Source: Candidatus Gastranaerophilales bacterium (GTDB lineage Bacteria > Cyanobacteriota > Vampirovibrionia > Gastranaerophilales > Gastranaerophilaceae). From it: 64,000 nt of DNA. The DNA lies in contig CALVEK010000002.1 of assembly GCA_944326555.1 (NCBI GenBank), positions 62,001-126,000 of the forward strand. The letters run 5' to 3'. Of this stretch, positions 26,931 to 39,311 are shown piece after piece (within the stretch, counting starts at the first letter, position 1; each line of letters starts with the position of its first letter). The translations under genes were made by a program, and so were the position numbers. Under the pieces are notes generated by a model. It searched no databases and was not told the origin of the DNA. It was given only the letters and a program-made list of their open reading frames with translations.

Positions 26931-27338
26931 ATGAGTAATTTTTCCAAGATAATTTTGTCTTTAGCCTTTGCAGGTATGCTATCTTTGTGCACAGCAACAA
27001 TAACAACACCCTCAACAGCTGCGCAAGCAGAAGCAGAAGACCCAACATTATACAAAACAGTTAGAGCAAGTCATATTCTGGTTGATACAGAAGATCAGGC
27101 ATGGGCAATAAAAACAAGAATCACAGAGGGAGAAGACTTTTCAAAACTTGCACAAGAATATTCAAAATGCCCATCAAAAGACAAAGGCGGAGATTTAGGG
27201 TATTTTAACAGAGGACAAATGGTTCCTGAATTTGAATACGCAGCATTTTCCACACCAGTTGGAGAAGTATCGGATCCTGTAAAAACCAGATTCGGCTGGC
27301 ATTTAATCAAAGTAACAAGAAAGATGTTGGCAAGATAA
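26931..27338 (+). CDS. Secreted parvulin-type peptidyl-prolyl isomerase
   Basis: A 135-residue protein with an N-terminal signal peptide (about residues 1-30, ending TAAQA). One rotamase (PpiC) domain follows from about residue 43: [43 protein letters not shown] in segments, and FGWHLIKV. The conserved HIL, GGDLG, G.M..EFE and GWHxI elements are all present. It should isomerise prolyl bonds in exported proteins in the periplasm. Such single-domain PpiC proteins may help fold outer-membrane proteins like those encoded in this window. GGAG lies 7 nt before the ATG. Confidence 0.9.
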
Positions 27339-27411
27339 ATTGCAAATGTTTTAAAAATTCTATAATATGGGTATATAGAGGATAGTACACAATGTATGGA
27401 GGAAATCTCAC

Positions 27412-27792
27412 ATGAAAAAGTTATTTTTGACTACAGTAGTAGCTTTGTTTGCAACAATGCTGGTAATCCCCGCATTAAATGAAAAATCATCTGTTGCATA
27501 TGGAGCTCCAACTTATAAAACTGTAAAAGCACAGGTTATAGTTGTTAATTCAAAAGCAGAAGCCGACAAAGTAAAATCAGAACTTAACAACGGCGGAAGT
27601 TTTTATGCTATAGAAAAGAAATATTCAATATCTGAGCTGGATAGCTATAGAACAATGACCAAAACTGAAATTGATCAGAATTATCCAGAGTTAAGCGAAC
27701 TTGCCAAAACAATGAAATCAGGAGAAATATCTAACCCTGTTGAAACACAAGATGGTTGGGTTATTATCAAAATGATATCTCGCACATATTAA
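27412..27792 (+). CDS. Degenerate parvulin-like secreted protein
   Basis: A 126-residue exported protein, paralogous to the PPIase upstream. A signal peptide (about 1-27) is followed by the same YKTVKAQVIVVNSKAEADKV layout and a closing GEISNPVETQDGWVIIKM. The central catalytic part (SHIL, GGDLG) is missing or replaced by SISELDSYRTMTK, so isomerase activity is doubtful. It may keep only a binding or chaperone role. Strong AGGAAA-type ribosome site; 73 bp separates the two genes. A 10-11 bp inverted repeat follows at 27906-27940. Confidence 0.7.
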   Translation: MKKLFLTTVVALFATMLVIPALNEKSSVAYGAPTYKTVKAQVIVVNSKAEADKVKSELNNGGSFYAIEKKYSISELDSYRTMTKTEIDQNYPELSELAKTMKSGEISNPVETQDGWVIIKMISRTY

Positions 27793-27905
27793 TCAAGTGT
27801 ACTATTTAAAAGTTCTTGACGACAAAATATGTTGTTGATAAACTTTAGATACTTGATAGATAGTGCATTGAAAATTTAATACTAAACGTTTTATACATTT
27901 ACGTT

Positions 27906-27940
27906 ATTGAGCAATGTAATATATGATTGCATTGCTCAAT
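27906..27940 (+). repeat. Perfect 11-bp inverted repeat
   Basis: ATTGAGCAATG and its exact reverse complement are separated by 13 bases. No T-run follows, so it is a poor Rho-independent terminator. It belongs with the palindrome-rich DNA that begins here and runs to the tRNA genes. The rest of 27793-27965 holds nothing I can name. Confidence 0.6.
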
Positions 27941-27965
27941 ATATTTGATGATGTTGTGTAGCTTT

Positions 27966-28250
27966 TGACTCTGCTGACGAGAATGATTGATTATCATTCG
28001 AGGAGAGGTAGCACCGTAGGTGCGCTACATTAAAATTATAAAACGGGATGTGGCGCAGCTTGACTCTGCCGACGAGAATGATTGATTATCATTCGAGGAG
28101 AGGTAGCACCGTAGGTGCGCTACATTAAAATTATAAAACGGGATGTGGCGCAGCTTGACTCTGCCGACGAGAATGATTGATTATCATTCGAGGAGAGGTA
28201 GCACCGTAGGTGCGCTACACTAAAATTATAAAACGGGATGTGGCGCAGCT
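27966..28250 (+). repeat. Three 95-bp tandem units carrying the 5' end of tRNA-Pro
   Basis: Units begin at 27966, 28061 and 28156 with an exact 95-bp period. Units 1 and 2 each run into a full 5' tRNA-Pro end (CGGGATGTGGCGCAGCTTG); unit 3 runs into the real gene. Each unit then contains ACTCTGCCGACGAG, a 7-bp-stem palindrome (GAATGAT-TGATT-ATCATTC), GAGAGGTAGC, and GGTGCGCTAC. The last is the exact reverse complement of the tRNA-Pro segment GTAGCGCACC. Divergence from the tRNA begins in the D-loop. None of the partial copies could fold as a tRNA. Confidence 0.92.
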
Positions 28251-28307
28251 TGGTAGCGCACCTCGCTTGGGACGAGGGGGTCGCACGTTCAAATCGTGTC
28301 ATCCCGA
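28234..28307 (+). tRNA. tRNA-Pro (TGG)
   Basis: Cloverleaf: acceptor CGGGATG pairs with CATCCCG. The anticodon stem CCTCG/CGAGG encloses the loop CTTGGGA (anticodon TGG), and the T-loop is GTTCAAATC. Discriminator A at 28307; CCA is not encoded. Confidence 0.95.
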
Positions 28308-28350
28308 TTTTTTAAATTTTGTACACTGAAAAACAAAAGTAAGAAGAATT

Positions 28351-28520
28351 AACTCAATGCTTAGAGAGCAAAGCTCTCGAGTATAGATTACTACCTGCCG
28401 TAGAAGGCAGGATTGACAATTAAATTTGCGGAAGTAACTCAATGCTTAGAGAGCAAAGCTCTCGAGTATAGATTACTACCTGCCGTAGAAGGCAGGATTG
28501 ACAATTAAATTTGCGGAAGT
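28351..28520 (+). repeat. Two 85-bp tandem units carrying the 5' end of tRNA-Gly
   Basis: Units begin at 28351 and 28436; the third 85-bp step (28521) is the real tRNA-Gly. Each unit follows AACTCAATG of the tRNA D-arm, then diverges in the D-loop into a hairpin (GAGAGC-AAA-GCTCTC). Next come CCTGCC...GGCAGG, where AGAAGGCAGG is the inverted copy of the tRNA anticodon arm, and then the AT-rich leader and GCGGAAGT again. This is the same design as at tRNA-Pro with different palindromes. Confidence 0.92.
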
Positions 28521-28587
28521 AACTCAATGGTAGAGTACCTGCCTTCCAAGCAGGCTGCTGCGGGTTCGAGTCCCGTCTTCCGCTCCA
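28513..28587 (+). tRNA. tRNA-Gly (TCC)
   Basis: Acceptor GCGGAAG/CTTCCGC; anticodon stem CCTGC/GCAGG with loop CTTCCAA (anticodon TCC); T-arm CGGGTTCGAGTCCCG. CCA is encoded (28585-28587). Confidence 0.95.
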
Positions 28588-28591
28588 TTTG

Positions 28592-28758
28592 CACATTAAA
28601 TGAAAGATATTGACTCTCACACGTATTTCTAAGCAAATAAATTTGCAAGAAATACGGTTTACGTGTTCGATTTGCTAAAGCAAATCGCCAGCACCCGACA
28701 TTCTACAAAATCATAGATTTTTTGAATGTCGTGCGAGTCCCGTCTTCCGCTCCATTTG
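28592..28758 (+). repeat. Palindrome-rich segment ending in a second tRNA-Gly 3' end
   Basis: A 25-nt tract from the tRNA-Gly T-loop through CCA (28567-28591) is repeated exactly at 28734-28758. The intervening DNA contains four strong palindromes. These are GTATTTCT..AGAAATAC; ATTTGC-TAAA-GCAAAT directly after GTTCG; GACATTC..GAATGTC; and, nested in the last, AAATC-ATA-GATTT. It looks like a tRNA 3' half whose T-loop has been split by palindromic inserts, or a duplication of the tRNA end. Confidence 0.8.
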
Positions 28759-28764
28759 TTGTAT

Positions 28765-28835
28765 GGCGGCATGGCCAAGTGGTAAGGCAGAGGCCTGCAA
28801 AGCCTTTATCCCCAGTTCGAATCTGGGTGCCGCCT
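28765..28835 (+). tRNA. tRNA-Cys (GCA)
   Basis: Acceptor GGCGGCA/TGCCGCC; anticodon stem GAGGC/GCCTT with loop CTGCAAA (anticodon GCA); T-arm CCCAGTTCGAATCTGGG. CCA is not encoded. This is the only tRNA in the cluster without a partial copy in front of it. Confidence 0.95.
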
Positions 28836-28845
28836 TTTTGAATAG

Positions 28846-28870
28846 AAAGACCTCAAAAGAGGTCTTTTTT
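28846..28870 (+). terminator. Rho-independent terminator after tRNA-Cys
   Basis: AAAGACCTC / GAGGTCTTT stem with an AAAA loop and a T6 tail. It could also serve the HTH gene that converges from the right. Confidence 0.85.
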
Positions 28871-29084
28871 AGTATCTTTTTCTCTTATCGACGAATTTGA
28901 TATCATAATCCAAAATCTCAGCAATAAGCTTAATCTCACGATAGGGAATCGTTTCTTTTCTGAGCTTTTGAGATAGATTTGCCATTGTGTATTTTTTGTT
29001 TAATTTCTTAGACAGTTCGTTTGCTAGGTCTGTTAGTGTAAAATCTCTATCTAAAATTAGTTGTTTTATTTCTTTAATAATCAC
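28869..29084 (-). CDS. Small Xre-like helix-turn-helix protein
   Basis: A 71-residue protein whose sequence (LTDLANELSKKLNKKYTMANLSQKL in parts) reads as a helix-turn-helix of the lambda-repressor type: an A-E-L helix, a turn, and a recognition helix MANLSQKLR. A closing helix IKLIAEILDYDI follows. It has the size of tiny DNA-binding proteins found in Firmicutes and their elements. I choose GTG at 29084, which has TAGGTG about 6 nt upstream; the GTG three codons earlier overlaps that site. Its 3' end overlaps the tRNA-Cys terminator. The target is unknown. Confidence 0.55.
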   Translation of the reverse strand: MIIKEIKQLILDRDFTLTDLANELSKKLNKKYTMANLSQKLRKETIPYREIKLIAEILDYDIKFVDKRKRY

Positions 29085-29168
29085 TAGTAGCACCTAAATT
29101 CAACTATATGATTAACAATTATACAATATGTTTTAGTATTCAATTAATAAGTTGAGTTAGATGAAAAA

Positions 29169-29342
29169 ATGGAATCAAAAAAACTAAATATTATAGAAAG
29201 CAACATAGCTAATATAGACTCTATTGTAGGGGTTTGCATAAACTCAATATGCTACGAGCCTGAAAATACTGCACCTGTTGTTTATTTATATTTTTTTGAA
29301 ACGATACAAAAGAAGTTGAAAGTCATAAGAGAGCAGTTTTGA
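29169..29342 (+). CDS. Possible 57-residue small protein
   Basis: A short reading frame from ATG 29169 (MESKKLNIIESNIANIDS...) with ordinary amino-acid composition, divergent from the HTH gene. No ribosome site better than GAG is visible and I recognise no family. It ends shortly before the tRNA-Val pseudo-copy. It may be a real small gene or a remnant. Confidence 0.3.
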   Translation: MESKKLNIIESNIANIDSIVGVCINSICYEPENTAPVVYLYFFETIQKKLKVIREQF

Positions 29343-29374
29343 CAAAAATTTTTTTATGCTATTATTAGCGAAGA

Positions 29375-29485
29375 TTGACAAATCAATAAATGGGCGGTTG
29401 GCACTCTGCCGAACGAATTGACTAAATGTCAATTTGTGAGAGGTGGTAGCGCATCTCAAAGCAGAGCTTTGACAAATCAATAAAT
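29375..29485 (+). repeat. 94-bp duplicated leader with a partial tRNA-Val copy
   Basis: TTGACAAATCAATAAAT plus the first 11 nt of tRNA-Val (GGGCGGTTGGC) occurs at 29375 and again 94 bp later at the real gene. In the copy, the tRNA diverges in the D-arm into ACTCTGCCGAACGA, a palindrome (AATTGAC-TAAAT-GTCAATT), GAGAGGTG, then the D-arm 3' strand GTAGCGCATC, then a CAAAGC-AGA-GCTTTG hairpin. The ACTCTGCCG and GAGAG flanks match those in the tRNA-Pro units. Confidence 0.88.
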
Positions 29486-29561
29486 GGGCGGTTGGCGCAG
29501 TTGGTAGCGCATCACATTGACATTGTGGGGGTCGCTGGTTCGAGTCCAGTATCGCCCACCA
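29486..29561 (+). tRNA. tRNA-Val (GAC)
   Basis: Acceptor GGGCGGT/ATCGCCC; anticodon loop TTGACAT (anticodon GAC) closed by TCACA/TGTGG; T-arm CTGGTTCGAGTCCAG. CCA is encoded at 29559-29561. Confidence 0.95.
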
Positions 29562-29565
29562 TTTA

Positions 29566-29595
29566 AAAAAGAGGCTTCTATAAAGCCTCTTTTTT
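29566..29595 (+). terminator. Rho-independent terminator after tRNA-Val
   Basis: AAAAAGAGGCTT / AAGCCTCTTTTTT hairpin immediately after the tRNA. The following 218 bp to the next gene are AT-rich with no feature I can support. Confidence 0.88.
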
Positions 29596-29813
29596 ACTGC
29601 GAAATTTACCGTCAGTAGCGAGCTTTTTGTTAATCAGCATCAAACAGAGAACACAAAGTTAATATTTTTGAGAAAATAAAATATTTAAACAATAAAATTC
29701 TCTTTTTTACACATCATAAGCCCCTAAAAATTAATTTTTTATTATTTTTTATTGAATATCAAGATATCTATGTAGAATTATAGTATGAAATATTTAAAAT
29801 AAAGGAAGAAACA

Positions 29814-30062
29814 ATGTGGCAAATACTTCAACAACCATCTTGTGCATCACAGATAACCAAAAATCCGATAGACGATTTAACGCAGAATACATATAATTCT
29901 TCTGAGACACTAAGACTACTTTTAAAAGAAAGTAGAGAATCACAAAAAAGGTCTAATAGCCAATTTGTAATAACAACGTTAATCACTCTTGCTACATTAT
30001 TTTTGGCAGCACTTCCTTATATAGAACGCATAAAGTCCTTTTTTAGACTAATACATTTTTAA
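29814..30062 (+). CDS. Small tail-anchored membrane protein
   Basis: An 82-residue protein with a hydrophilic first half (SSETLRLLLKESRESQKRSN) and one hydrophobic helix near residues 52-70 (FVITTLITLATLFLAALPYI), followed by a short basic tail. GGAAG lies 7 nt upstream of the ATG. Its end overlaps the 3' end of the convergent recombinase gene by 20 bp. No family is recognised. Such small membrane proteins often sit at the edge of mobile elements. Confidence 0.55.
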   Translation: MWQILQQPSCASQITKNPIDDLTQNTYNSSETLRLLLKESRESQKRSNSQFVITTLITLATLFLAALPYIERIKSFFRLIHF

Positions 30063-31647
30063 AAAGTTTTCTTAAACTCAAGTCCACATCCTGAGTTCCA
30101 TTTAAAATATCCTCTTGTATGTTTGGCGGCAAAAATCTGAGTGACATAATTTGTCTAATATATTTTTTATCTTTCATATTTTCAAAACGTTGGATATCGG
30201 TTATTGTTTTACAAAGACCTTTCTGTAACAGACCGTGCCAATAGTAACATCTTGTTAGTGCTTTTATTAGTGTCAAATTATATTTTTGAATTTTGGAATT
30301 TTCTGGAATTATCAAAATTTTACCTTTGGTTGGTGTTCTAGCAATTTTTATTTTCTTATCAAATGAAATAAATTCTGTAGGCTCTTCACAACACGATATT
30401 TCTAATTTACTTTTATATACAATTGATAAAAGAACTGGGATCAATGTATTTTTCTTTATTATAATTTGTATCCTATCTGCATATAAAATAACATTGAAGA
30501 TTAATGCTCTTATGAAAAAAGGTTCAAATGTTTCTGTATTTTCAAGATATTTGATTATTGCAATTTCTTGCTTTATATCTAAAGTTGTAAGATAAACTTG
30601 TATTTGATTTGTATTTTTTAGAAAACCGGTAATTTCATCTTTGACAACTTTTTCAATTTCTAATGCAGGAATTTTTGTTACAGAACCAGATTTTTCTTTA
30701 TTAAGCCCGAGTATAGCCTGACTTACGTAATATCTGTATTTCTTATTTCTTGTATTGCTGAGACTAGTCGTCATTATATTTTCTTTGTCGTCATACAACA
30801 AACCTTTTAAAAAAGAATCACTGGTGTTTTTACTTGTGCCTTCAATTGCATTAAGAGACAATATGTTTTGCACTTCTTCAAAAAGAGAAGGTTGAATAAT
30901 AGCAGGATGCTCACCATCGTATTCGTTTTGTTTATGAACAATCTTACCTGTATAAATCTTATTTTTCAGTATGTAATAAAGATTTCCTTTTGAAAAATTT
31001 TTACCGGATTTTGTTTTGATTTTGCTATCTTTCAGGTATTGCATTAATTTTGAGACACTTTTAAACTCTAAATATTTATTAAAAATAAGCTTTATTTTTA
31101 AGCTATCTTTCTCATTGATTTTTAAAGTTCTATTATTCTTGTCGTACCCCAAAGGTACAACCCCTCCCATCCATAGACCTTTTTTCTTTGATGCTGCGAA
31201 TTTGTCCCGAATCCTTTCTCCCGTTACTTCTCTTTCAAATTGAGCAAAGGATAGCAAAATATTTAATGTCAGTCTACCCATAGATGTTGTCGTATTAAAA
31301 TGTTGTGTTATAGAAACAAAAGAAGCTTGATGCTGATCAAAAATATCTATGATTTTTGAAAAATCCATAAGAGAACGGGTTAACCTGTCCACCTTGTAAA
31401 CAACCACAATATCAATCTTGTCTTCTTTTACATCTTGCAATAGTGCTTTAAAGGAAGGTCGTTCCATTGTTCCACCGGAATACCCGCCATCATTATATTG
31501 CGTATCTATCAATATCCAGCCCTCATTCTTCTGTGATTTAATGTAGGCTTCACAAGCTTCTCGCTGAGCATCTAGTGAATTAAAATCCTGCTCCAGACCT
31601 TCTTCTGTTGATTTCCTTGTATAAATTGCACATCTGATTTTTTTCAT
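30043..31647 (-). CDS. Large serine recombinase
   Basis: A 534-residue site-specific recombinase. The N-terminal resolvase domain (about 1-150) has the nucleophile Ser in YTRKSTE, plus DRLTRS and FAQFEREVTGERIRDK. A recombinase domain (about 160-260) follows with GKIVHKQNEYDGEHPAII. The C-terminal part ends in LRFLPPNIQEDILNGTQD. Large serine recombinases integrate and excise phages and genomic islands. This gene lies at the left edge of the accessory region, close to tRNA-Val. It is intact and starts with a normal ATG. A truncated relative of its C-terminus lies at the right edge (60781-61032). Confidence 0.92.
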   Translation of the reverse strand: MKKIRCAIYTRKSTEEGLEQDFNSLDAQREACEAYIKSQKNEGWILIDTQYNDGGYSGGTMERPSFKALLQDVKEDKIDIVVVYKVDRLTRSLMDFSKIIDIFDQHQASFVSITQHFNTTTSMGRLTLNILLSFAQFEREVTGERIRDKFAASKKKGLWMGGVVPLGYDKNNRTLKINEKDSLKIKLIFNKYLEFKSVSKLMQYLKDSKIKTKSGKNFSKGNLYYILKNKIYTGKIVHKQNEYDGEHPAIIQPSLFEEVQNILSLNAIEGTSKNTSDSFLKGLLYDDKENIMTTSLSNTRNKKYRYYVSQAILGLNKEKSGSVTKIPALEIEKVVKDEITGFLKNTNQIQVYLTTLDIKQEIAIIKYLENTETFEPFFIRALIFNVILYADRIQIIIKKNTLIPVLLSIVYKSKLEISCCEEPTEFISFDKKIKIARTPTKGKILIIPENSKIQKYNLTLIKALTRCYYWHGLLQKGLCKTITDIQRFENMKDKKYIRQIMSLRFLPPNIQEDILNGTQDVDLSLRKLFKNVLV

Positions 31648-31728: not shown

Positions 31729-34383
31729 TTAGATCTTTATTGATATTTTTTCTTTCTCTAATTCTTTAAAATTTATACTTTCAAAAACTGGCATTTGTTG
31801 ATAACGGAAGTAATAATAATAATTTTCATCTATTTTAGCTTTAATAATTTTTTGCGCTTCTTCTTGTTCATCTATCAAAATATATGCTGCGGCTTTTTCC
31901 ATTGTATCTTTAGTATTATCAAAAATAGGCTCTAAATTAACTTTTGTAATTTTAGATGGATTTTTTCTTCTTTTTTTTGCTAAATTATAATTGATTTTTA
32001 AAATGTTATCATTTTTATTAACTAATATATTAGATTTATCATTGATTAATTTTTGGTATATTTCATAAATTTCATCATATTCTTCAAGTTTCAAAAGATT
32101 GTATGTATATGTAATATAGTCAGATGTTGTTTTGTCACTTTTTTCAAACTCATCCATTATCTTATCAAAAAATTTATTCTTATCTATGTGAAATAAAATT
32201 TCATTATAAACATCTAGCCTCATTAACTCAGATGCATCAGGCTGTCTATTTATAATATCAAAAGCTTTTTGATATTCATTATTAAAAAACAACAAACTTA
32301 TATACAAAGAAAAATACTTTAATCTGTCATTTCTCGCAATCTTTAATAGTCTTGGGTCAATACTTTCTATATTTTTTATCGCCAAGTTTAAATTTCTAAA
32401 ATTAACTAATATACATCTTGTTTTATTTAAATTATATAAAATACTATCTTTATATTGAAGGTCATTATCCGAAAATATTTTTATTAATTCATCACAATTG
32501 TTTAACTTTGATAAAATTTTAATATATTCAGATAAGTAAAAAATGTTTCTTTCATAAATTCTATTATTTTTTAAATACTCATTAAAGATGTCTTTAAGTT
32601 CTAACAAATATTTTTTTTCATTATCTTTATCATTTTTAATTTTTCTATAAATTTTTTCTATTTTTGCATCATAAACAGGCATTGAATAATTATCTTTAGA
32701 ACCCAGATCATTTATAATTTGATCACAAACATCAATAATTTCTTGGACATCATTATGTCGTTCAATCACAAAAGACAATTTATCCATATATGCATCATTA
32801 TCAGACGTTTTTGATAAATCAATCGATTTATCATATAGTTGCATAATTTCCCTCCAGGAATCTTTAGAAAAATCATTTAGCTCTATTTTATATTCTGCTA
32901 TATTGTTAAGAATTATATAATTGGATGAATCCAAATTAAAAGCTTGCTCAAGAATAGATATTTTTTCATTTATATCCGGAACAAGGCTTGCTTTTTTTAT
33001 TAAATAAGGGATATTAGAATCTTTTTTGTGCTCATTATTGTATTGCATAACTTTGTCAATTGTCTGCAACGCTAATTGTTTCTGTTCTAATCCAACAAGA
33101 CAATTAATTTTGTGGTACACATATACATTATATAAAAATGAGGGAACATCCTTATTTGTTATATTTTTCTCAATAAGTTCCAATGCTTGATTAAATTGTT
33201 TATTTTTAATAAGAATTCTTATATCTTTTTCTTCTGGTACATTATATTCACTCTTTAGTTCTTTTTCTTTTATCTCGTATTTAGAATTTTGGTCCATATT
33301 ATTTTGTTCAATCTGCTCATGAGAATATGAAGCATCAAATTGTGAATTATTTATATCATTTACGATTAATTCGCAATCATTAAACTTTTCTTTTTGTTCC
33401 ATAAAATATTCTTGCTGTTTGGTAACACGAGCACTTGCCAACATACCTAATTGTATAGGAGAATTAACTTTACCTTCTTCATTTAATACAAGATGTGCTA
33501 GCTGTGCACAAAAAACATCGAAATTATCTATTAAAACGTAATATACTTTATCTTTTTTTAATAAATCTATAACTTTTTTACTAATATTACCGTTATTAAA
33601 ATCTTCCTTTCTTATACACCAATATATTCCATTATTAAGATATTCTTCTTTAGTCAATAAATCATTCAAAACTTTCATAATAGAGTCATCATTACCCGCA
33701 TACCCCACAGTAATCAATCCATAATTTTTTAAAAATTCTTCAAATTTACTTTTCATATTTGTTTCTAAATCGCTTAGTTCATCATTTGTCGATTTAAGTT
33801 TCTTAAAAAGGAAATCACCGTGTAATTTTATGATCTTAGTTCTCTGCGAACGAATGCTAATATTAAAAATCGAAGAATCATGTGCACAAACAATAGGACG
33901 TTTTATATCGTTATATGGAGACATTGACTGTTCAAGTAAATCATCAAAATTAGTTGTAAAAAAAGTGTCAATTTCACCGTTATGAGCAAGACGATTGAGA
34001 TATTTATATCCAATCGACGGTTCCTTTGCTTTTATGACTTCACGTTCAATAAAATTTCTTCGTTGATTTGGTAAATCATACAATTTACCAAATAATGACC
34101 CGTATTCATTGTTTTCATCATACCAAGAGCGTTCATTTTCTCTTAAATATTGTCTAATTTCATCAGGACTAATTGCATTTATATCTTCATTTTTTAATCT
34201 CCTATAAACCTCTGTAAGCCATTTTTCCACTAAAACTTGACCTGTTCTAATACCTGACGACGCAGAAGCTCCAGCACCAAGCAACATGCAATACAAAGCT
34301 TGTTTGTCTTCTGGTTTGTTTTTTATAAATGTTGCCAAATCTTCAATTGTTCTTAATTTTTCTGTATTGATATCCAAAGCCAT
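31729..34383 (-). CDS. SIR2-domain protein with helical repeat C-terminus (probable anti-phage defence)
   Basis: An 884-residue protein. The N-terminal ~300 residues are a SIR2-like NAD-binding fold: LLGAGASASSGI, FFTTNFDDLLEQS, KLHGDF and LITVGYAGNDDSI are the G.GAS, TxNxD, catalytic His and C-terminal pocket elements. The remaining ~580 residues are all-helical, with TPR-like A/B spacing in several stretches and no ATPase motif. SIR2 plus helical repeat is the layout of defence sirtuins that deplete NAD+ on phage infection (DSR type). Which phage component it might sense is unknown. The start is placed at 34383, where AAAGGT precedes the ATG; a 16-codon upstream extension lacks a ribosome site. 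It sits alone between recombinase and autotransporter genes. Confidence 0.8.
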   Translation of the reverse strand: MALDINTEKLRTIEDLATFIKNKPEDKQALYCMLLGAGASASSGIRTGQVLVEKWLTEVYRRLKNEDINAISPDEIRQYLRENERSWYDENNEYGSLFGKLYDLPNQRRNFIEREVIKAKEPSIGYKYLNRLAHNGEIDTFFTTNFDDLLEQSMSPYNDIKRPIVCAHDSSIFNISIRSQRTKIIKLHGDFLFKKLKSTNDELSDLETNMKSKFEEFLKNYGLITVGYAGNDDSIMKVLNDLLTKEEYLNNGIYWCIRKEDFNNGNISKKVIDLLKKDKVYYVLIDNFDVFCAQLAHLVLNEEGKVNSPIQLGMLASARVTKQQEYFMEQKEKFNDCELIVNDINNSQFDASYSHEQIEQNNMDQNSKYEIKEKELKSEYNVPEEKDIRILIKNKQFNQALELIEKNITNKDVPSFLYNVYVYHKINCLVGLEQKQLALQTIDKVMQYNNEHKKDSNIPYLIKKASLVPDINEKISILEQAFNLDSSNYIILNNIAEYKIELNDFSKDSWREIMQLYDKSIDLSKTSDNDAYMDKLSFVIERHNDVQEIIDVCDQIINDLGSKDNYSMPVYDAKIEKIYRKIKNDKDNEKKYLLELKDIFNEYLKNNRIYERNIFYLSEYIKILSKLNNCDELIKIFSDNDLQYKDSILYNLNKTRCILVNFRNLNLAIKNIESIDPRLLKIARNDRLKYFSLYISLLFFNNEYQKAFDIINRQPDASELMRLDVYNEILFHIDKNKFFDKIMDEFEKSDKTTSDYITYTYNLLKLEEYDEIYEIYQKLINDKSNILVNKNDNILKINYNLAKKRRKNPSKITKVNLEPIFDNTKDTMEKAAAYILIDEQEEAQKIIKAKIDENYYYYFRYQQMPVFESINFKELEKEKISIKI

Positions 34384-34490
34384 TTTTATTATTACCTTTA
34401 CTATTAAATAGATGCATGATAATTTTAACATCAGAAATCAAACATTTCATTTCATATTAAGTAAATATTACAAAAGCATAATGAGAAACA

Positions 34491-37400
34491 TTACTTACCG
34501 ACTTTACTTCTTAAACCGACTGAGAACGCAACACCTTCTCTGCCCCCGCTTCTGAACATTGCCTGTCCATAGCCTGTGAATCTTTCTCCCCAGCGTTTTT
34601 GTACACCCAGTCCGTATTCGACGTAAGGTCTTACGGCTAATTCCGGTAAACTTACATCATTAGCCTGAAATTTTGTTTTATCCATTATATTCCAGATAAA
34701 GTTCACCCCGAGATATGGCTGCCATCCGTTAGAACAGTTGCCTACAAGTTTTATTCCCGGTACAACCTGAATTGCATTTAGCGGGTCAGAAGTAATATTT
34801 ACACCGGCTGCATTGTGATAATCAAATGTATTTACAAATGAGTATGACATTAAATAGCTTGGCTGTAGTATCATTTTGCTGTTAAACAGTTCCCAATTAT
34901 ATCCTGTTTTTATTGCAGTACCGGCTAAAAGCATACCAAAGTTTTCAGAACCTCTTGAGGTATTTGCATCTGCTCCGTTTGCACCTACGTTAGCCGTCCA
35001 CGCACCAAACCAGTTACCTTTGTACAATGTACCTGTTGTCCCCAGTGTACCGCCATTTTGATATATGCTGTTTCCCTGATATGCCTGGTGGCTTCCGTTG
35101 TAACCCGCATAGAGACTGAACACTCCCTCAAAGCCGTGACCGAGTTCTTTTATTGCAGAATCACCTCCGATAAAAGAACCGTACATTACGTTAGAAACTC
35201 TCGGACCGCCTCTTAAAGCAACGCTTTCAAATGATGAATAAGGTCTTGCCCAGAGTCCTTTGTTTTCTTCGGGCAACTGTGTCGGAGCGTATGTGTACAT
35301 TGAATCAGAGTATGCATATTTATTTCTGTTTTTCATAGCTTCTCTGTCAGCTTTTGACATAAGCATCGTGATATCCATATTGGCAAATGCCTGATCGTAT
35401 GAATTTAATAATGTCAAATATCCGCCTGCTTGCGCAGCAACAGAAGATACCATAACAGACGGATTTACGTTTGCATAATCAGATGATGAACCTCTTGTAA
35501 ATGCAAATTCACCTGTTGTTGGGTCATAGCCTACACCGTATTTATAAATTGCTGAATAAGCAACATCTTTTACAGAAGTAGTCACATGGCCTTTTAACTC
35601 ATCAGGCGCAAAGGAAATAACTGTTTTGTCTTTATTAGCATCACTCAAAAGATTTATATTGCTTACATTTAATTTTCCGTCTGTAACCTTGTATCTGTCT
35701 GCAGAAATGCTATCCATTTTTTCTGCTGCCAAATCTGCATCCACAGATATATTAGAATTTTTATTTAGCTCAATTGAAGCAAGAGAAATGTCATTAACTG
35801 TTCCATTTGCAAGGTTCAACAAACCTCCGCTAAAGTTTACGCTGTTTTTGTTTCCATCAGGATTTGACAGGTATTCGTCTTTTGTGAAAGTAACACTGCC
35901 GCTGTTTATATTGTATTGCAAAGCGTCTATGTAGTTGTTGTGAACAGTGTCTTTGTTTTCATTGTTAATTGTAAGAGGATCTATTTTTCCGTTGAATACA
36001 ATCCTTCCGTCTCCTCGCAAAGTCATTTCATTAGAAACATTTGCTGAACGAATATCATTCCTGATTTCAACAGTTCTGCCTGATGAAGCGGAAATATCTG
36101 CTTTTGCTGTTGTTCCATCCAAATATATTGCGTTTGCTTTATCGGCTTCCGATATTATGTTGTTTATTGAAATATCATTATTTATTGCATTAATTTCAAG
36201 TTTTCCTCCGTCTTTTACAGTTAAAGCCCCTTCATTTGCTGCTGAGGTCTTAAAGTTAGAAATATTTGCATCGCTTATTTTTAAAGTCTGGTTGTTGTTA
36301 ACAACTATTCCGCTGTTCTGGTTTCCGTCTATTGTGTAACCGTTTCCGTTCACAGTCAACTCGGTACCGCCGAGATTTCCTGTCCATCCGGTCTGAAGTC
36401 CTGACCCGGATATAACAATATCTTCATTTGCAGAAAAGCTTCTTTCATCTGCCAGATTTATGTCTTTATTGTTTTGAGATATTGTATCTGAACCGCTTAT
36501 TACAAGTGAAAATCCGTCTATTTCAACAGTCTTGTTTTCATCATCAACCAGTCTTGAAATATTCAAATTTTTGCCATCGGCATTGATTGTATAAAGATAT
36601 TTATTTGTTAAAACATCAAAGTTTTGATGTGAATTTATGCTCAAATCGGAAGACATCCCTTTATCTGTAAAAGCTGTAGTATAGCTGTTTACACCATTTT
36701 CAAAATCAGATACGAGATTTACATTTGTCAAGTTTAAAGTACCTGTTGACGGTCCTTTTGCAACAATAGTATCAAAGTTTTTATTTTCCGCATCTATATC
36801 TATCGCAATATTTGCATTGTCAGCACTAAACGTATTCAGGCTCATTGTACCTGCTTTGTTATTTGAAAGATCCAAAAAAGTACCACTTGCAAGTATTACT
36901 TCTGTGTCATTCAAATTTGAATCGTTATTTAGAACAACATTTCCGCTTTTGACGTTTATTTGTATTCTTGATGAAGGAACTGGCACAACAGGAGCGTTAA
37001 AAACAACTGTTCCAGCATTACCTACTGTTTTATTATTTATATTGATATTTGGAATATATTCTTTTGTTATAGTTTCGCCTTGTTCGTTTTGATAATTTAT
37101 TGCAAAACTTTCACCTGTTATACCACCGTTAAACGTAATGCTTTTACCGCTTGTTGTATTTAGATTTAGGTTCGAACCACGAAGATATATGTCGGCTCCT
37201 TGATTTGCCGTGTTATCCTTAAACTCAATATTTTTATTTTCCGCACTGATATTAACAGATGGTGTTTTATCTATATCCAAAGCATAGCTCTCTGATGCAA
37301 TAGCAGCGCCAAATTCGGCTTTATTTCCGACAAAAGAAGTGTCTTTTATATTCACATCCGCTTCCAGGTTATAGATAGCTCCGCCAGAATATGCTGAATT

Positions 37401-39311
37401 TTCGACAAAATATGAGTCTGTGACGTTTGTTACCGAATTATATCCATTGAATATGGCACCACCATTACCTCGTATCCCCTCATTGTGAATTTCAATAACT
37501 TCTGGTTTTAAATTCTCATCAGGAAGGCCTACTGTAAGAACATGTGATTCCCATTTTGTAACAGATGTGGAATTGTTTTTAAATGTTGAGTTTTTTATGT
37601 CTAATGAATATGTATCTGTATAATCAGTAACATTGTTATCCAAGCCGTTCGCAATTGCGCCACCGGCAAATCCGGCTATATTATTGCTAAATTCTGCATT
37701 ATCAATTACAGTTGTTCCTTCATTATGAATAGCTCCGCCAATTCCATTGATTGTATAAACATAACCTGTTTTATCTGTAAAATCATGTTTTACTTTTAAA
37801 TCATATTCTGATTTTGCAGTGTTATTGCTAAATTTACTGCCGCCTGAAACGGATAAAGTTCCTTTGTTATAAATTGCACCACCTTTTTGAGCAGCTATGT
37901 TATTATTGAATGTCGAATTATTTATATTTGCAATGTTTTCATTGTAAATAGCTCCGCCATTACCTTTTGCACCTGTTTCGATTTGATTTATTATTTCAGG
38001 AATAAGAGAAGGATTATCTTCATTATTTTCTTCATTTTTGTATTTTGTATATGCTTTGTTTGAATCAAAATTTGACTCCGACAATGCTAGTATTGTGTCT
38101 TTTTCATTGCAAATGGCACCGCCTTGCAGTGATGCAAAGTTGCCTTTAAACTCTGAATTCGATATTTCAACAGCCGGAATAGTTACATCTTCATCGAATT
38201 TTTCAAAACTCAAGTTCACAGCACCACCTTGCTGACCTGATTTGTTTGAATCAAAGATCGAATTTTGAATGTTTAGTTTTGAATTAAAAAAATTAGAACC
38301 GTAAAAATCGACAGCACCGCCATGTGTACCTGCTTCATTTGCAATAAAAGTAGAATCTTTTATAATCGTGTCGGAACTAGTGCTTATAGCTCCGCCGGCA
38401 CCTTGAATTATGTGACTTTCTTTCCATTTGTAATTTGTTTCATCATATAGTTTTGAGTCTCGGTTTGACTTTGCAATATTGTTTTCAAATGAAGAGTTTA
38501 GAACTTCGAGTTTGCCTGTGCCTGAGCTGTCTGTTTTTCCCTCTGAATTTATTGCACCGCCTTGAATAGCGGCAATATTTGAGTTGAATTTTGCTCCGTT
38601 AATTTTTAGCGAACCATTATTTGAAATTGCCCCGCCAAATCCGTTGTAATCATTGTCATAGCCATCTATAAGTTCATTGTTTACTTTGTAAGTATTAACT
38701 CTAAAGTATTCAGAATACGCTTTGTTTCCGATAAATTCATTGTTTCCAATAAGATTTAGTGTACCATTTCTATCGTTAAAGATAGCACCACCCATTTGCG
38801 CGACAATATTGTTTTTAAAAATAGAGTCAGAAATTGTTGTATTACTATGGTTTGCAATCGCACCGCCATAACCGAGGGACATATCAATATTTTCTTGTAC
38901 AATACTGCCAACTTGCTGTTCAGGTACTTTAAAAAAATAGTGATACAATGCAGAGGTTGTATTATTTTCAAAAGTTGAGTTTTCTATGTTCATTTCACCG
39001 TAATTTGAAACAGCTGCTCCTTCTACAGTGTAGTCATAAGGTGATATTTCTGTTTGTTCTGTTGGAAAATCTGGTTCGATGGAGTTGTTTTTAAATGAAG
39101 TGTTTTGAATATTTACCGTACCTTCATTGTATATACCGGCTCCGGAAGATTCGTGTTTTAGACTTTCAAAACGGTCATTGTTTATATCTAACGTATCAGG
39201 AACAGGAACAACAACTCTGTCATTAGCAAAAGTGACACTCCCTACGGTAAGCATTACAGCTAAAAGCAAGGGAGTATAGACTCTGCTTTTATTAAAAATC
39301 TTTTTCTCCAT
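34491..39311 (-). CDS. Pmp-type autotransporter adhesin
   Basis: A 1,606-residue type V secreted protein. A signal peptide ends near residue 30 (LTVGSVTFA). The passenger contains many polymorphic-outer-membrane-protein repeats: GGAI(Y/S/N)N paired with FxxN segments such as STFENN, SNFDSN and STFNNN, between about residues 60 and 720. A less regular beta-helix follows. The last ~290 residues form the autotransporter barrel (WARPYSSFESVALRGG, then alternating aromatic strands to the C-terminus). The passenger should be displayed on or shed from the cell surface and act in adhesion. Its C-terminus ends ...RSKVGK, without the usual terminal aromatic. The promoter must lie in the 150-bp gap shared with the divergent Xre gene. 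Confidence 0.9.
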   Translation of the reverse strand: MEKKIFNKSRVYTPLLLAVMLTVGSVTFANDRVVVPVPDTLDINNDRFESLKHESSGAGIYNEGTVNIQNTSFKNNSIEPDFPTEQTEISPYDYTVEGAAVSNYGEMNIENSTFENNTTSALYHYFFKVPEQQVGSIVQENIDMSLGYGGAIANHSNTTISDSIFKNNIVAQMGGAIFNDRNGTLNLIGNNEFIGNKAYSEYFRVNTYKVNNELIDGYDNDYNGFGGAISNNGSLKINGAKFNSNIAAIQGGAINSEGKTDSSGTGKLEVLNSSFENNIAKSNRDSKLYDETNYKWKESHIIQGAGGAISTSSDTIIKDSTFIANEAGTHGGAVDFYGSNFFNSKLNIQNSIFDSNKSGQQGGAVNLSFEKFDEDVTIPAVEISNSEFKGNFASLQGGAICNEKDTILALSESNFDSNKAYTKYKNEENNEDNPSLIPEIINQIETGAKGNGGAIYNENIANINNSTFNNNIAAQKGGAIYNKGTLSVSGGSKFSNNTAKSEYDLKVKHDFTDKTGYVYTINGIGGAIHNEGTTVIDNAEFSNNIAGFAGGAIANGLDNNVTDYTDTYSLDIKNSTFKNNSTSVTKWESHVLTVGLPDENLKPEVIEIHNEGIRGNGGAIFNGYNSVTNVTDSYFVENSAYSGGAIYNLEADVNIKDTSFVGNKAEFGAAIASESYALDIDKTPSVNISAENKNIEFKDNTANQGADIYLRGSNLNLNTTSGKSITFNGGITGESFAINYQNEQGETITKEYIPNININNKTVGNAGTVVFNAPVVPVPSSRIQINVKSGNVVLNNDSNLNDTEVILASGTFLDLSNNKAGTMSLNTFSADNANIAIDIDAENKNFDTIVAKGPSTGTLNLTNVNLVSDFENGVNSYTTAFTDKGMSSDLSINSHQNFDVLTNKYLYTINADGKNLNISRLVDDENKTVEIDGFSLVISGSDTISQNNKDINLADERSFSANEDIVISGSGLQTGWTGNLGGTELTVNGNGYTIDGNQNSGIVVNNNQTLKISDANISNFKTSAANEGALTVKDGGKLEINAINNDISINNIISEADKANAIYLDGTTAKADISASSGRTVEIRNDIRSANVSNEMTLRGDGRIVFNGKIDPLTINNENKDTVHNNYIDALQYNINSGSVTFTKDEYLSNPDGNKNSVNFSGGLLNLANGTVNDISLASIELNKNSNISVDADLAAEKMDSISADRYKVTDGKLNVSNINLLSDANKDKTVISFAPDELKGHVTTSVKDVAYSAIYKYGVGYDPTTGEFAFTRGSSSDYANVNPSVMVSSVAAQAGGYLTLLNSYDQAFANMDITMLMSKADREAMKNRNKYAYSDSMYTYAPTQLPEENKGLWARPYSSFESVALRGGPRVSNVMYGSFIGGDSAIKELGHGFEGVFSLYAGYNGSHQAYQGNSIYQNGGTLGTTGTLYKGNWFGAWTANVGANGADANTSRGSENFGMLLAGTAIKTGYNWELFNSKMILQPSYLMSYSFVNTFDYHNAAGVNITSDPLNAIQVVPGIKLVGNCSNGWQPYLGVNFIWNIMDKTKFQANDVSLPELAVRPYVEYGLGVQKRWGERFTGYGQAMFRSGGREGVAFSVGLRSKVGK

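Follow-up and report, generated by a model that had tools for sequence, protein, structure and literature searches.

Tandem partial tRNA copies with palindromic hairpins in Gastranaerophilales and their probable origin from a mini-element

Within one tRNA operon of a gut bacterium, the genes for tRNA-Pro, tRNA-Gly and tRNA-Val are preceded by short units that repeat the 5' end of the respective tRNA, break off in its D-arm and continue with palindromes. The question raised by this locus is what such units are and how they arose next to tRNA genes. Essential single-copy tRNA genes should be the least suitable landing place for a parasite, yet throughout the order to which this genome belongs a palindromic element resides in their loops and the genes are still intact.

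Anatomy of the operon and its units

The window, i.e., the whole stretch of 64,000 nt that was analysed, is part of a Candidatus Gastranaerophilales genome of 2.08 Mb. The hairpins of its Pro and Val units share one design, referred to as element E in the following: ACTCTGCCGA, a variable perfect stem with its loop, and GAGAGGT, spanning about 42-46 nt including the ends. The features of the operon, with intact tRNA genes as located by ARAGORN, are

27816..27882 (+): operon leader 5' of the Pro array, with promoter-like TTGACG...TATGTTGTTGATAAAC and with TTGAAAATTTAATAC, which we take to be boxA-like; conserved in the array-free operon of a sister species
27968..28009 (+): first E element before tRNA-Pro (ACTCTGCTGA variant); a decayed 5' fragment of tRNA-Pro lies ahead of it (~27945-27967)
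28008..28028 (+): hairpin 2 of Pro unit 1, GTAGCACC-GTA-GGTGCGCTAC, including an inverted copy of part of tRNA-Pro
28044..28062 (+): copy of the first 19 positions of tRNA-Pro
28063..28104 (+): second E element before tRNA-Pro
28139..28157 (+): another copy of the first 19 positions of tRNA-Pro
28158..28199 (+): third E element before tRNA-Pro
28234..28307 (+): intact tRNA-Pro (TGG)
28346..28430 (+): Gly 5' unit 1, with partial tRNA-Gly, hairpin 1 in its D-loop (28364-28378, GAGAGC/GCTCTC), hairpin 2 (28394-28411, CCTGCC...GGCAGG) and leader
28431..28515 (+): Gly 5' unit 2, hairpins at 28449-28463 and 28479-28496
28513..28587 (+): intact tRNA-Gly (TCC)
28588..28758 (+): Gly 3' unit, with hairpins and, behind them, a copied 3' end of tRNA-Gly (28731-28758); also found in relatives
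28765..28835 (+): intact tRNA-Cys (GCA)
29375..29402 (+): Val leader and partial tRNA-Val copy (positions 1-11), an exact repeat of 29469-29496
29403..29444 (+): E element (Val), loop TGACTAAATGTCA, in place of tRNA positions 12-17
29445..29455 (+): D-arm 3' segment GGTAGCGCATC of the partial tRNA-Val copy
29486..29561 (+): intact tRNA-Val (GAC)

That is, each 5' unit combines the leader with a tRNA 5' end that reaches position 11-19 and breaks off in the D-arm; a hairpin replaces part of the D-loop. The unit lengths named in the original prediction were reproduced: three units of 95 bp precede tRNA-Pro (98-99% alike), two of 85 bp precede tRNA-Gly (99% alike), and one of 94 bp precedes tRNA-Val, where exact 28-nt repeats are spaced by 94 bp. 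The common flanks reported for the Pro and Val hairpins, ACTCTGCCG...GAGAGGT, are present as well, while the Gly hairpin belongs to another family than E. The copy of the tRNA-Gly 3' end had been overlooked.

It had also been claimed that the extra hairpins of the Pro and Gly units hold inverted copies of the tRNA's own next segment. For Pro, this is exactly the case, since GGTGCGCTAC is the reverse complement of GTAGCGCACC within the tRNA. For Gly, 9 nt are exact (GAAGGCAGG, the reverse complement of CCTGCCTTC), but the 10-mer AGAAGGCAGG contains one mismatch. The Val unit, unlike the Pro and Gly units, carries no inverted copy of its own tRNA.

In a sister species (L414), the same Pro-Gly-Cys-Val operon is compact and free of units, with a length of 334 bp compared to 1,328 bp in the window; this empty state may be the ancestral one or result from secondary loss. 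Both operons retain the leader with its promoter-like and boxA-like motifs, and in the window the Pro array lies between this leader and tRNA-Pro. Because the conserved leader is located upstream of the array, the units are probably part of the primary transcript, as judged from the sequence. A 16S search of the window genome's assembly, done to obtain a boxA reference, returned no rRNA.

The surroundings of the operon were inspected, too. No Rfam family other than tRNA scores above threshold within 27300-30100. A gene for a large serine recombinase, a distant CcrB/XisF relative (30043-31647, -), starts 480 bp downstream of tRNA-Val; beyond it follow a SIR2-like ORF (31729-34431) and an autotransporter-like ORF (34491-39311), both judged by eye.

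Spread of E and its orientation at tRNA genes

Next, we considered whether the design extends beyond this operon. The search for like structures at other tRNAs of the genome and its relatives, which had been proposed along with the original prediction, clearly found them. E itself occurs at Pro, Val, Lys, Leu, His, Met and further tRNAs, while other hairpin families show the same habit at Gly, Ala, Ser, Thr and more. The common E loop TGACTAAATGTCA is found in 14 copies in the window genome compared to 0 for a reversed-pattern control, such that its recurrence is not due to chance. Of 286 genomes from the uncultured order Gastranaerophilales, 197 carry exact E cores, with up to 61 exact copies in a single genome (reversed-pattern controls: 3 matches in all). 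Searches of 5 genomes from a different order of the class and of about 135 further Cyanobacteriota found no E core, and the control gave 0 in 244 genomes. Where records with a genuine E hairpin carry a name, it is mostly Candidatus Gastranaerophilales or that of an unclassified gut bacterium; matches to E in clearly different organisms from a collection of 85,000 species lack the stem and were dismissed as chance. This confirms that the observation is real and lineage-wide. We found no published description of E in the open-access literature.

Partial copies were also counted irrespective of E. A strict 11-mer test on both sides of each gene identified them beside 12 of the 38 distinct tRNA genes of the window genome (6 upstream, 8 downstream), and looser inspection adds further tRNAs. 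The same test applied to one genome each from two E-free families of the order yielded 0/17 and 1/18 tRNAs. Numerous contigs of the window genome terminate at tRNAs, as would follow if the arrays interrupt assembly.

The habit extends beyond E, as seen for genome G007 from another family of the order: here, a different hairpin family (GCGAGCGAGC...GACCGAGCAAGACA) together with a tRNA 3' end lies 3' of tRNA-Asp (L484), and the family recurs at Ser-GCT and Gly-GCC. At four further loci (L399, L401, L409, L415), a second hairpin family, GGACTCCGT...ATGGAGG, occupies the Pro D-loops 5' of tRNA-Pro; behind it stands CCAAGCTGCGCC, which repeats the D-arm of tRNA-Pro in inverted form.

With regard to location, 28 of the 51 hairpin-true E matches in named genomes are within 250 bp of a tRNA, while about 1% is expected, with the GAGAGGT side towards the tRNA in 26 of these 28. 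We also sorted 101 hairpin-true E contexts near 22 tRNA species by strand. In the 84 same-strand (upstream-type) contexts, which carry the tRNA 5' half, the break follows positions 18-20 in 41 cases, i.e., beside the two conserved D-loop G residues, and positions 10-12 in 34 cases. The 17 opposite-strand contexts are nearly all downstream and carry the tRNA 3' half, broken in the T-loop or anticodon loop. Upstream copies thus hold E in their D-loop, and downstream copies hold its reverse complement in their T- or anticodon loop. Since upstream and downstream copies mirror each other, the orientation of E is set by the copied tRNA end and not by transcription. The tmRNA of one relative likewise carries three antisense T-loop units with E. 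Away from tRNAs, E lies within a larger hairpin in 29% of cases compared to 16% by chance; this being weakly above chance, we dropped the rule that E is always enclosed by an outer hairpin.

The stems were compared within and between copies. Among copies pre-filtered for a stem of >=5, the arms of E match over 8.5 bp on average within one copy and over 3.9 bp when swapped among copies. Non-standard stem pairs are G-T in 12 of 59 cases, roughly what a lack of wobble preference would give. The Gly unit has orthologues in at least 14 genomes of the genus. Its hairpin 1 is paired in 97% of cells (at most 45% in slid controls) with 8 cells changed on both sides, while its hairpin 2 is invariant, CCTGCC...GAAGGCAGG, and at the same time antisense to the anticodon arm of the tRNA. 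Second hairpins show C-GNA-G triloops in 22/45 cases compared to 46/449 in control windows, and GNA triloops are a signature of DNA hairpins. Because the stems covary without G-T excess and the orientation tracks the tRNA end, a DNA-level element is favoured over a regulatory RNA. The stem features are suggestive of maintenance at the DNA level, be it hairpin-templated repair or selection on the DNA hairpin, and would fit this better than selection on RNA.

Phage contig, dispersed repeat and RAYT genes

E is also found away from tRNAs. One copy is located on a tailed-phage contig (L111, 3447-3492, -), in the gap after a tail ORF between tail genes; the contig encodes Mu-like portal, terminase and baseplate ORFs (by eye). 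A viral vehicle was considered and set aside: among the viral matches listed, a few have stems of 5 bp or longer (L102, L111, L132), and of these L111 alone is E-like while the others look like chance. E also lies inside a dispersed 150-190-bp repeat of the genus, of which another copy lacks it. Both states are seen at one locus of a relative (L363), where direct copies of the repeat (GTCAACTGACCCCG...CCCACTCAGACAAT; 1135-1421 and 1999-2191) flank a RAYT gene, with E in one copy and ACTCC in the other.

As a RAYT gene adjoins E in one genome, we evaluated RAYT as the mover of E. RAYT genes, identified via NF047646 and as relatives of PDB 4er8, were detected in 72 of the family's 191 genomes, in 58 of these above the curated cut-off. 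Where examined, they are flanked by GTAGGTTGGG-type (GTAG) palindromes and not by E, and 4 of 30 loci family-wide are near a tRNA. Furthermore, E is common in genomes without RAYT, and the window genome harbors a RAYT remnant alone, which is decayed with two stops (contig C29, 912-1085). The candidate was therefore rejected, i.e., RAYT is a neighbour with a similar preference for hairpin loops and not a proven mover of E. Such a preference is seen at a 3' array of tRNA-Phe (L364, 1232-1951), where a RAYT gene with its GTAG palindromes lies exactly in the loop of an E hairpin; that is, a RAYT hairpin element is nested in an E hairpin, which is nested in a tRNA copy. We found no enzyme that moves E, which counts against reading it as a mobile element.

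Explanations for the arrays

The explanation we prefer, with a probability of roughly 58% for the whole, is a lineage-specific palindromic mini-element that enters tRNA and tmRNA loops with coupled partial duplication and tandem growth. E would be a mini-element of Gastranaerophilales, one among several hairpin families of the same habit. E or its cousins may enter an arm loop of a tRNA or tmRNA as a hairpin, via ssDNA insertion or template switching in replication. Surviving insertions would be those that came with a partial duplication, in tandem, of the adjacent tRNA half plus its flank, i.e., the leader on the 5' side and the terminator on the 3' side, such that one intact tRNA is left. 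Insertion and duplication presumably occur together, and the inverted tRNA pieces behind the hairpin may reflect fold-back copying at the jump. Units would then multiply in tandem, accumulate within the tRNA operon and be inherited with hairpins that are still complementary, the arrays being mainly selfish or neutral. This agrees best with one of the earlier proposals, a palindromic mini-element that targets tRNA D-loops and duplicates its target, which has to be extended to T-loops, anticodon loops and tmRNA. Two points pull the other way: the genus-wide conservation of orthologous units could also be a sign of function, and gene conversion could be behind part of the spread of E among D-arms.

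The two further proposals of the original prediction fared less well, so that its interpretation is supported in part. If the units acted within the pre-tRNA transcript as a structured tRNA-mimic RNA by which the downstream tRNA is adjusted in its processing or folding, the Pro array would be well placed between the conserved promoter/leader and the tRNA. The covarying Gly hairpin and the Gly unit kept in 14 relatives, with its invariant hairpin antisense to the anticodon arm, would suit such a role, too. However, downstream units carry antisense E past terminators, non-standard stem pairs show no G-U excess, no non-tRNA Rfam family reaches threshold and the sister species does without any unit at these four tRNAs. 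A regulatory leader is thus disfavoured and, in our view, rather unlikely. Template switching at tRNA hairpins, yielding tandem duplications and fold-back copies whose palindromes are perfected by hairpin-templated repair, would do without any mobile element. It may well be the copying route, because inverted partial tRNA copies are present in the Pro and Gly units; stems that remain perfect while their sequence drifts and stable triloops at fold-backs agree with it. As sole cause it is largely refuted and improbable, because the conserved ends ACTCTGCCGA and GAGAGGT are common to 22 tRNA species, tmRNA, an intergenic repeat and a phage, for which independent origin is impossible.

The units might also be worn remnants of tRNA-targeting integrative elements that were reduced to their ends. 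Integration at tRNA genes classically leaves partial tRNA copies at the ends of the element (PMC9897764), and the serine recombinase gene next to tRNA-Val would fit. But the units are tandem, cargo-free and 85-170 bp long, they share one conserved hairpin among 22 tRNA species, use 5' as well as 3' halves with mirrored hairpin orientation, and show no associated recombinase across loci, which leaves this account a distinctly small probability. An artefact of short-read metagenome binning would be in line with the several tRNAs at contig ends, where repeats break assembly. Its probability is nonetheless negligible given the same design in about 200 independent genomes, some with at most 10 contigs, and in contig-internal positions.

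For the preferred mini-element, a further-reaching version is possible but tentative: E may be the first of a class of target-restoring mini-transposons, whose ssDNA hairpins specifically enter tRNA/tmRNA arm loops while the same event copies the acceptor-side half with its leader or terminator, such that the essential RNA gene is re-formed beyond the insertion. A coupling of insertion and target repair, if real, would be a new answer to the target-damage problem of mobile DNA as well as a compact model of hairpin-directed ssDNA insertion. In practical terms, the arrays may account for Gastranaerophilales assemblies breaking at tRNA genes, and the tRNA fragments are at risk of misannotation.

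Comparison with known systems

REP/REPIN sequences are similar to E in being short, selfish-looking palindromes of many copies with ssDNA-hairpin character, and RAYT genes occur in the family. E also agrees with the description as imperfect multi-copy palindromes of 20-40 bp, given its ~42-46 nt including ends. REPs are further defined by an unpaired GTAG or CGTC tag at one end (PMC3733652), while E ends in ACTCTGCCGA and GAGAGG; the TAG that follows E is tRNA sequence in type I sites and variable elsewhere. Moreover, no cognate RAYT flanked by the same palindrome was found for E, and it resides in tRNA loops instead of generic intergenic sites.

Structured regulatory RNAs such as T-box leaders are expected to match a known RNA family and to be sense to the transcript. 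Here, tRNA is the sole match and 17/101 E contexts are antisense.

Rickettsia palindromic elements and cyanobacterial small dispersed repeats are tiny palindromic or structured inserts in structured RNA genes and intergenic sites. We know of no targeting of tRNA loops across most isoacceptors by either, nor of target-restoring duplications. In E. coli tyrT, tandem repeats downstream of the tRNA each begin with the tRNA 3' end, which makes them the nearest single-locus analogue of the downstream units. Unlike the E arrays, they are confined to one locus and have neither a common hairpin element nor 5'-half units.

Finally, the units resemble tRNA attachment sites (attL/attR) and tRNA-integrated islands in that a partial tRNA copy forms a direct repeat beside the restored intact gene, with break points in the T- or anticodon loop. 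In contrast to islands, what lies between the copies is hairpins and leader instead of integrase and cargo, and in contrast to attachment sites, the units are about 100 bp long, stand in tandem and most commonly consist of 5' halves broken in the D-loop.
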